Positions 34,212 to 36,351 of a stretch of DNA of 48,490 nucleotides are shown here, piece by piece (the first letter of the stretch is position 1; every line of letters starts with the position of its first letter). The stretch is from Verrucomicrobiales bacterium. GTDB taxonomy: Bacteria; Verrucomicrobiota; Verrucomicrobiia; Limisphaerales; CANJXF01. The stretch is taken from contig CANJXF010000003.1 of the NCBI GenBank assembly GCA_947478865.1, positions 90,912 to 139,401 of the forward strand, read 5' to 3'. The translations under genes were made by a program, and so were the position numbers. The notes beneath the pieces were generated by a model. That model had not been told where the DNA came from. It did not search any database and saw only the letters and a program-made list of their open reading frames with translations.

Positions 34212-34344
34212 AGAGACCGCTTTTGTCGCGAGCCGGTGGTTGGTAATTCAGGATAGCTCTCGTCTGACTTGCAAGTGGACCCAAAGCGGAGTGGCGCTAT
34301 TTTTCGGCCTTCAGTCGCAGTTGCCGTCGTGTCATGCTGCGGAC

Positions 34345-35508
34345 ATGGCAAATGATGCGAAATCAAAACCCAAGGCGTCGGCGGTGGCTCAGGGGAGTGG
34401 GTTGCAGGGCAGCCCGGCGCGGGTGAAGGCCCTTCTCTTGCACATTGCTGTGCTCTTTGTTTTCGCGCTGGCGGCGGGCGCTGCGGAAAAGAAACGGCTC
34501 ATCGAGTTTGGCTGGGACGAACCGGACACGGCGTTCATGCGGAAACATATTTTCGAAATGGAGAAGACCCCCTTTGACGGTTGTGTCTATACGGTCAATT
34601 ACACCACGGCGAATGGCGTCAGCGGGAGCTTCATGAAAGAGGCGTGGGGCACCCGGGCTTTCACCGATGCTGAATTGAAACCGGCCCTCGATGATTTAAG
34701 GGCCACGCCTTTCCGAAAGCTGACGTGCAATTTTCTGCGGTTCAACGTCACGCCCGGAAACGTGGATTGGTTCGATGATTTTTCCGCAATTCTGCAAAAC
34801 GCACGGCTCGCGGCGCGGGTCGCGCGCGCGGGTAAAAGTAAAGGCATCCTATTCGACATCGAGCATTATGCGACGCCGCTTTTTCATTACCGCAAGCAGC
34901 GTGATTCCGCGACCAAATCATGGGAGCTCTATGCTGCGCAGTCGCGCCTGCGCGGACGCGAAGTGATGACGGCGTTTCAGGCGGAATTTCCAGAGGTGAT
35001 CGTTTTTCTCACCTTCGGTTACAGCCAGCCGTGGGCGGGATCGGACAATGGGAAAAAGTCGCTGGCCGACGTTGAATACGGCCTGCTTGCCCCCTTTCTC
35101 GATGGAATGGTCGAGGTCAGCACGCGCCGCCATAACATCATCGAAGGCGGCGAGATCGCTTACTCATTTAGGGAGACAAACAAATTCCTGAGACATTACA
35201 AGGTGATGAAGGAGAACCTGCTTCCGATTGTTGCCAATGAAAGAAAATATCACTCGGCGGTTTCCATCGGGTTCGGAATCTGGATGGACTATGACTGGCG
35301 CAAAAAAGGCTGGGACGCCCGCGACGTGGCGAAAAATTTTTACACGCCGGAACAGTTCGAGGCCAGCGTTCGCGAGGCGCTGAACGTTGCGGACGATTAT
35401 GTCTGGATCTACACGGAGCAAGCGCGCTGGTGGACGCCGGAAGGAAAACCAACCGCTCTGCCAGATTCCTACGCGGAGTCCCTTCAGCGGGCCAGGGAAT
35501 TTCGCTAA
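34345..35508 (+). CDS. Secreted TIM-barrel-like protein, putative glycosidase
   Basis: A 387-residue protein. Start uncertain: the ATG at 34345 precedes a hydrophobic segment (about 28-45, LLLHIAVLFVFALAAGA), a signal with a long polar n-region; a GTG nearer the helix is possible. The barrel has RLIEFGWDEPDTAFM, FDGCVYTVNY, L-F-D171-I-E173-H-Y (the likely acidic active-site strand), VIVFLTFGYSQPW, and a final DYVWIYTEQARWWTPEG. The order resembles uncharacterised glycoside-hydrolase-like proteins of Planctomycetes and Verrucomicrobia. Its last about 116 bp are duplicated 505 bp downstream as a fragment without the rest of the gene. Confidence 0.72.
   Translation: MANDAKSKPKASAVAQGSGLQGSPARVKALLLHIAVLFVFALAAGAAEKKRLIEFGWDEPDTAFMRKHIFEMEKTPFDGCVYTVNYTTANGVSGSFMKEAWGTRAFTDAELKPALDDLRATPFRKLTCNFLRFNVTPGNVDWFDDFSAILQNARLAARVARAGKSKGILFDIEHYATPLFHYRKQRDSATKSWELYAAQSRLRGREVMTAFQAEFPEVIVFLTFGYSQPWAGSDNGKKSLADVEYGLLAPFLDGMVEVSTRRHNIIEGGEIAYSFRETNKFLRHYKVMKENLLPIVANERKYHSAVSIGFGIWMDYDWRKKGWDARDVAKNFYTPEQFEASVREALNVADDYVWIYTEQARWWTPEGKPTALPDSYAESLQRAREFR
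35375..35490. repeat. Direct repeat copy A (3' end of the TIM-barrel gene)
   Basis: These 116 bp match 35880-35995 with four differences by eye (about 97% identical), at a constant 505 bp offset. Here the repeat lies within an intact gene. Confidence 0.9.
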
Positions 35509-35605
35509 GTAATCTCGCGCCCGACAACCAGGGATTCAATCGTGATGGCACTTCTGAAGATAAACCACTTCACCCGCCGGGAGCGGTAGGTCCTTGGGTA
35601 GTCCT

Positions 35606-35743
35606 TTATTTACGTTGATGATCGTAAAGGCTCTTCAGTGCGAGCGTAATTACTACACCCTGACGGACGCCTCCAAAGTGGTTGCTGAGCCACTTGATTA
35701 GCTTCAAATCCTTTGCCGAAAACTGTATTGATGTTTTCCTCAT
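35606..35743 (-). CDS. 45-residue ribbon-helix-helix-like protein, copy A
   Basis: ATG at 35743-35741, stop TAA at 35608-35606. The product fits a minimal ribbon-helix-helix DNA-binding fold: strand TSIQFS (4-9), helix A KDLKLIKWLSNHFG (11-24), turn GVRQG, helix B VVITLALKSLYD (30-41). Length is at the lower end of the CopG/Arc class. A second intact copy lies at 36112-36249. They differ at six residues and about 18 of 138 bases; most changed codons (about nine of fifteen) are silent, which suggests selection on protein sequence. No ribosome site is obvious upstream of this copy. No toxin-like partner is recognised, so an antitoxin role is only one possibility. Confidence 0.68.
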   Translation of the reverse strand: MRKTSIQFSAKDLKLIKWLSNHFGGVRQGVVITLALKSLYDHQRK

Positions 35744-35879
35744 AACGTAGGGTTAAACCGCAGCCAAGGACTGAACCTTACAATAAAGTGAAAGAATTTT
35801 TATGCGGGCGGACGTGCGCTTCAGCGTTTTGGATTGCGCGGGGGAGAGCAGGGTTACGCCGCTTTGGGTGCGGTTTTTA

Positions 35880-36019
35880 AGGCGCTGAACGTTGCAGGCG
35901 AATATGTCTGGATCTACACGGAGCAAGCGCGCTGGTGGACGCCGGAAGGAAAACCAACCGCTCTGCCAGATTCCTACGTGGAGTCCCTTCAGCGGTCGCG
36001 GTCGAGATTCGTTAAGTGA
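35880..36019 (+). pseudogene. Direct repeat copy B: orphan 3' fragment of the TIM-barrel gene
   Basis: Repeats 35375-35490 from ALNVA to PDSYxESLQR in translation, but the rest of the gene is missing. The local open frame starts at 35834 with unrelated codons (MRGGEQGYAALGAVF) and ends at a shifted TGA. It is probably not expressed as a functional protein. Identity to copy A (about 97%) is higher than in the small gene that accompanies it (about 87%). Confidence 0.85.
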
Positions 36020-36111
36020 CCTGAACCTGACAGGCTGGGGAGTGAAGCGGGGTGGAATTTCCTAAATCAATTCTCCTTTTTGGCGATCGGACGCGATCCA
36101 AAAGCGCCCGT

Positions 36112-36249
36112 TCATTTATGCTGCTGATCATAAAGGCTCTTCAGTGCGAGCGTAACCACGGCGCCCTGACGGACGCCTCCAAAGTGGTTGCTGAGCCATT
36201 TGATCAGCTTCAAGTCCTTTTCCGAAAACTGAATCGATGTTTTTTTCAT
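36112..36249 (-). CDS. 45-residue ribbon-helix-helix-like protein, copy B
   Basis: ATG at 36249-36247, stop TGA at 36114-36112. Sequence begins MKKTSIQFSEKDLKLIKWLS and ends LKSLYDQQHK; compared with copy A it has K2, E10, A30, V32, Q42 and H44. The strand-helix-helix layout is the same, and hydrophobic positions of both helices are unchanged. A GGGCGGGA-type ribosome site lies just before the start, which copy A lacks, so this copy is the better candidate for expression. Two adjacent palindromes lie 68-102 bp upstream (36317-36351), a plausible place for an autoregulatory operator of an RHH protein. Confidence 0.72.
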   Translation of the reverse strand: MKKTSIQFSEKDLKLIKWLSNHFGGVRQGAVVTLALKSLYDQQHK

Positions 36250-36316
36250 AATTTCCCGCCCTCAGCCCTTTTGCTGGAATTCTTCAAAAGTTTTTCCACC
36301 TGCGAACTGACTTTAG

Positions 36317-36351
36317 ATCATCAGAAGTGATGATGGAAAGGACTTTCCATC
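36317..36351. promoter_or_regulatory. Two adjacent palindromes, possible operator
   Basis: ATCATCA (36317-36323) mirrors TGATGAT (36328-36334) over four bases. GATGGAAAG (36332-36340) mirrors CTTTCCATC (36343-36351) over two bases. Both are perfect and they overlap slightly. They lie upstream of the copy B ribbon-helix-helix gene. No T-run follows, so they are unlikely to be terminators. Confidence 0.55.

Follow-up and report, generated by a model that had tools for sequence, protein, structure and literature searches.

A tandem pair of 45-codon genes in a Verrucomicrobiales bacterium, probably encoding a minimal ribbon-helix-helix protein

Layout of the locus and of its duplicated block

The window analysed here, a stretch of 48,490 nt from a chromosomal contig of a Verrucomicrobiales bacterium, carries on its minus strand two small open reading frames of 45 codons each, both with an ATG and a stop codon, just as the first-pass annotation had read them (Table 1). 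Of their 138 bases, 18 differ between the frames, with 1, 5, and 12 changes at the first, second, and third codon positions. Sixteen codons are affected, namely the stop codon (TAA or TGA) and fifteen sense codons, nine of which are changed silently and six are not; this recount agrees with the earlier estimate of about nine silent changes in fifteen. Minus frame 0 is the only one of the six reading frames that is open in both copies. The GC contents of the small genes (43.5% and 47.1%, versus 55% for the window) are compatible with recent acquisition. A search for a promoter-like site serving the small genes found none.

Table 1. Features of the duplicated block and its surroundings (positions within the window).
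Feature	Position	Strand	Remarks
Block copy 1	35375..35746		3' end of plus-strand gene, spacer, RHH-like gene 1
Block copy 2	35880..36252		Detached 3' fragment of the same plus-strand gene, spacer, RHH-like gene 2
Copy of the 3' end of gene 34240-35508	35880..35995	+	97% identical; non-functional fragment; 3 of 4 changes alter the protein
RHH-like gene, copy 1	35606..35743	-	45 aa, MRKTSIQFSAKDLKLIKWLSNHFGGVRQGVVITLALKSLYDHQRK, ATG to TAA; RHH profile z 4.8
RHH-like gene, copy 2	36112..36249	-	45 aa, MKKTSIQFSEKDLKLIKWLSNHFGGVRQGAVVTLALKSLYDQQHK, ATG to TGA; RHH profile z 6.3, AlphaFold pLDDT 84
Two inverted repeats (ATCATCAgaagTGATGAT, GATGGAAAGgaCTTTCCATC)	36317..36351		Lie upstream of copy 2; could be an operator or form RNA hairpins

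The duplicated block that had been noticed around these frames is indeed present, but it is larger than first described. Each of its two diverged copies is about 372 bp long and consists of the 3' end of the plus-strand gene 34240-35508, a spacer of about 105 bp, and the small gene. The small-gene parts are 87% identical, and they cease to be alike no more than three bases beyond the start and stop codons (35603-35746, compared with a frame at 35606-35743). The spacers can be aligned only with gaps and only barely, with a score of 18 that nevertheless exceeds those of all 200 shuffles (mean -15, maximum 15). Upstream of their start codons, the copies are unrelated in sequence.

The 116-nt piece derived from the plus-strand gene (35375-35490 and 35880-35995) is less diverged than the small genes, even though it is non-coding in block copy 2 (4/116 versus 18/138 differences, Fisher P = 0.007; 4/116 versus 12/46 at the third codon positions of the small genes, P = 6e-5). 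A single duplication running on one clock can therefore not have yielded both values. Later gene conversion, or a second and recent duplication of the 116-nt part, likely explains its lower divergence.

The product of gene 34240-35508 itself is 422 aa long and putatively secreted, and no fewer than four genomes of the order contain homologues of 55–61% identity. The protein has no match in Pfam or NCBIfam and represents an uncharacterised family that is possibly carbohydrate-active. An RHH-like (ribbon-helix-helix-like) gene was looked for downstream of these homologues, and none was found there. The other neighbours of the small genes encode carbohydrate-linked and PQQ-repeat proteins, a setting that suggests nothing specific about their role.

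Selection on the two frames and their distribution

The changes between the copies were compared with a neutral null in which the same substitutions were placed at random across the frame. An intact frame is left after 18 substitutions in 23–34% of such trials, so that intact frames alone are weak evidence. Non-synonymous codons, by comparison, number six against a null mean of 11.2–11.6 (six or fewer at P of about 0.002), a placement that rejects neutrality and supports purifying selection on the two small genes originally proposed. The dN/dS estimate suggested for the pair has now been run, and it lies below 1 by all three methods: 0.11 by NG86 (dN 0.059, dS 0.54), 0.16 by LWL85 (dN 0.062, dS 0.40), and 0.43 by YN00 (dN 0.095, dS 0.22), a spread that reflects how little 45 codons tell. 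That similarity is confined to the frame argues for a gene as well, independently of the substitutions. Because this similarity stops at the frame ends while the flanks have diverged, both frames are probably selected genes.

Relatives of the small proteins were sought at increasing distance. The source genome contains none beyond the pair, and 97 related genomes contain no homologue. The first-pass annotation had looked to related genomes for homologous intact frames, and none were found in the overlapping samples of 320 genomes of the order, 384 of the class, and 387 of the phylum; weak matches among the 320 turned out on inspection to be chance pieces of other frames. Plasmids and phages, searched with tblastn, hold no relative either, nor is there one among the matches listed by scans of viral and GTDB contigs with short exact-peptide patterns. 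None of the other genomes compared belongs to the family of the source genome. Since the pair itself carries a signal of selection, the lack of homologues makes it an orphan family and nothing more. Members of the RHH_1 family are common in the order (38 of 58 genomes), and the source genome has no RHH_1 match above the cut-off.

Evidence for the fold and comparison with known proteins

RHH domains are known for weak sequence conservation, and for this reason we built a profile of our own, comprising 20 RHH domains (RHH_1, from other genomes of the same order) and CopG, the sequence of which was confirmed against PDB 1b01. Scoring was global, over the full length, and in a fixed register with at most one gap; shuffled sequences served as the null. 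None of 3000 shuffles scored as well as either protein, a signal that is seen under global fixed-register scoring alone, a scheme that also favours any strand followed by two amphipathic helices. Against 9396 real 45-aa windows taken from 21 proteins of the window, copy 2 ranks above all and copy 1 falls within the top 0.05%. Known RHH domains, held out one by one, reach z values of 5.7–11.6, with one outlier at 0.9. The two halves also match separately: the N-terminal half at z 4.0–5.4, and residues 26-45, in fixed register against RHH helix B, with only 8/3000 (copy 1) and 1/3000 (copy 2) shuffles as good, in a test that gauges mainly amphipathicity, so that another kind of strand-helix-helix protein could score well too. 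In global alignment to CopG (1b01), 6/5000 and 1/5000 shuffles did as well as copies 1 and 2.

A local HMM made from the same RHH set detects neither protein, and neither has a match in Pfam (E up to 10), NCBIfam, or PADLOC. PHROGs returns one weak match (phrog_3887, ‘transcriptional regulator’, E = 0.11, residues 2-43). Sequence searches of the PDB with phmmer and hmmsearch gave no significant match; 8btn_B (E 0.87) and 6ft5_A (E 0.086) were set aside as chance or low-complexity-like. The RHH-like reading of the first-pass annotation is thus favoured by the profile for both copies, but not by any library or by the local HMM, and an RHH fold is likely for both proteins on this sequence evidence.

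AlphaFold monomers have an extended N terminus and helices at residues 10-22 and 26-44, as expected for RHH proteins (mean pLDDT 72 with both copies aligned and 84 for copy 2 alone). The order of strand, helix A, and helix B within about 45–50 residues is thereby reproduced, the strand itself not being formed in the monomer. Foldseek searches of single chains against the PDB and BFVD found no RHH protein, and neither these nor a VIA second look gave anything meaningful. The Foldseek test is weak because single RHH chains of the CopG or Arc type should for the most part lack order (PMC4803016).

Several known proteins invite comparison. CopG, the copy-number repressor of plasmid pMV158 (PDB 1b01, 2cpg) and a compact RHH protein without an extra domain (PMC4803016), has exactly 45 residues and can be aligned globally to the small proteins with one gap and a common core pattern. 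The two differ in that identity is low, so low that phmmer and hmmsearch against the PDB do not detect it, and in that CopG is plasmid-borne, whereas the contig of the small genes is chromosomal and no gene for plasmid replication was noted next to them. CdbA and CdbB of Myxococcus xanthus are likewise a paralogous pair of small RHH-type proteins with an alternating strand pattern; in CdbA, alternate strand residues are exposed while L11 and F13 face the core (PMC7156744), and the strand of the small proteins follows this pattern. The likeness is one of description, and c-di-GMP binding and a role in the nucleoid are properties of the Myxococcus proteins. Finally, the RHH_1 (PF01402) proteins of the same order have the profile core in common with the pair under global scoring, but the pair falls below every Pfam threshold.

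We assign a probability of about 0.68 to the reading that the two frames are real paralogues, derived from a local tandem duplication and encoding a DNA-binding RHH protein that belongs to the CopG/Arc type and has a minimal length of 45 residues. In other words, the pair is best read as a tandem duplication of a minimal, CopG-like repressor restricted to one lineage, and it is probably an orphan, CopG-sized RHH regulator. The earlier label of an unclassified small DNA-binding family is fair with respect to the sequence libraries, but less so with respect to structure, as the probable fold is known and CopG would be a close analogue.

Alternative readings, proposed function, and significance

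The small genes could be RHH antitoxins of a toxin-antitoxin module, or orphan antitoxins, the toxin having been lost or not recognised. RHH is a common DNA-binding domain of antitoxins (PMC4803016). Duplicated small genes of lower GC content also fit accessory modules. A type II antitoxin gene has its toxin gene adjacent to it, usually overlapping, but none is recognisable among the flanking frames, which are not toxin-like and the small ones of which have no Pfam match; in this respect the first-pass annotation was right. As the 45 residues are entirely taken up by the RHH domain, there is no C-terminal tail for binding a toxin, and PADLOC finds nothing, which leaves this explanation improbable.

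A selected small protein with a strand and a helical hairpin could also be neither RHH nor DNA-binding, for example a protein–protein adaptor. No library or structure search confirms the RHH fold, as this explanation would have it, but both halves, taken separately, match the RHH profile in the register expected of them, and we consider the adaptor reading distinctly unlikely.

The chief competing fold is that of LAGLIDADG homing endonucleases, of which the small proteins could be a fragment or derivative, residues 4-25 corresponding to strand, D, helix, and FGG. Viral LAGLIDADG_1 proteins have the pattern IxVxNTDxxLxKWLxxxFGG in common with them, and the strand-helix-FGG layout also occurs in unselected viral hits; the high scores of the best viral matches are circular, since these were selected by pattern. 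LAGLIDADG proteins were therefore drawn from annotated phages for a split-half test. Five proteins not picked by pattern still reach z of about 4 in the N-terminal half, which fits LAGLIDADG (z 4.0) and RHH alike. After FGG the likeness to LAGLIDADG_1 (PF00961) ends: 1192/3000 and 1884/3000 shuffles match residues 26-45 as well as the two copies do, and these residues fit RHH helix B instead and are turned into a helix by AlphaFold (26-44). The endonuclease fold is too big for 45 residues (the small proteins are about a fifth of the size of LAGLIDADG_1), and a dead fragment would lack the synonymous bias. The LAGLIDADG reading, which we now regard as very unlikely, was dropped after the split-half test, and RHH is preferred. 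As a separate observation, a viral contig (L220:9538-11463) carries two LAGLIDADG_1-like endonuclease genes close together.

That the frames are not genes at all, but stretches of duplicated non-coding DNA left open by chance, would agree with the lack of homologues in any collection searched, the lack of a promoter-like site, the ease with which frames stay intact by chance (P = 0.23–0.34), and the 97% identity of the 116-nt fragment, which is non-coding in copy 2 and thus shows that identity alone does not amount to selection, but it is hardly credible given that 12 of the 18 differences fall at third codon positions, that only six codons change sense (P = 0.002), and that similarity starts and stops at the frame.

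If the two genes encode RHH proteins, residues 3-9 (KTSIQFS) of two chains would pair as an antiparallel ribbon. By analogy with CopG and CdbA (PMC4803016; PMC7156744), I6 and F8 would lie in the core, and K3, S5, and Q7 would point toward the major groove of the DNA, while helices 10-22 and 26-44 would form the core of the dimer. Such dimers may act as transcriptional repressors at short repeated operators, their own promoter being the simplest target for autoregulation. Residues 3-9 are identical in both proteins; both copies should therefore read one and the same DNA sequence, and mixed dimers could arise.

Two perfect, adjoining inverted repeats (36317-36334 and 36332-36351, with arms of 7 and 9) are found in the gap between the PQQ-repeat gene and copy 2, 68–102 bp upstream of the latter. 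The 48-kb window has only three distinct perfect repeats with an arm of at least 9 and a spacer of at most 4, one of which is that upstream of copy 2. Copy 1 has no counterpart upstream. The perfect copy of the palindrome at 36332-36351 is unique in the genome, and its use as a repeated, genome-wide operator was accordingly discarded. Rfam gives no match and thus no support for a structured RNA. As a candidate operator, the repeats are a lead. A more specific proposal, that of a lineage-restricted RHH family in which the DNA-reading ribbon stays identical between two tandem copies as the remainder diverges, the copies locally regulating the neighbouring carbohydrate-processing genes, seems doubtful.

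The understanding of RHH regulation would stay unchanged by such a protein, its general type being well known. The pair does, though, illustrate neatly and on a small scale how regulator genes of very short length slip through family libraries, and it demonstrates that a paralogous pair alone can hold enough substitutions to argue for selection, without a curated model or a known relative. If confirmed, it would represent a near-minimal DNA-binding protein without sequence relatives, and would bear on the question of whether such proteins originate de novo or diverge beyond recognition.
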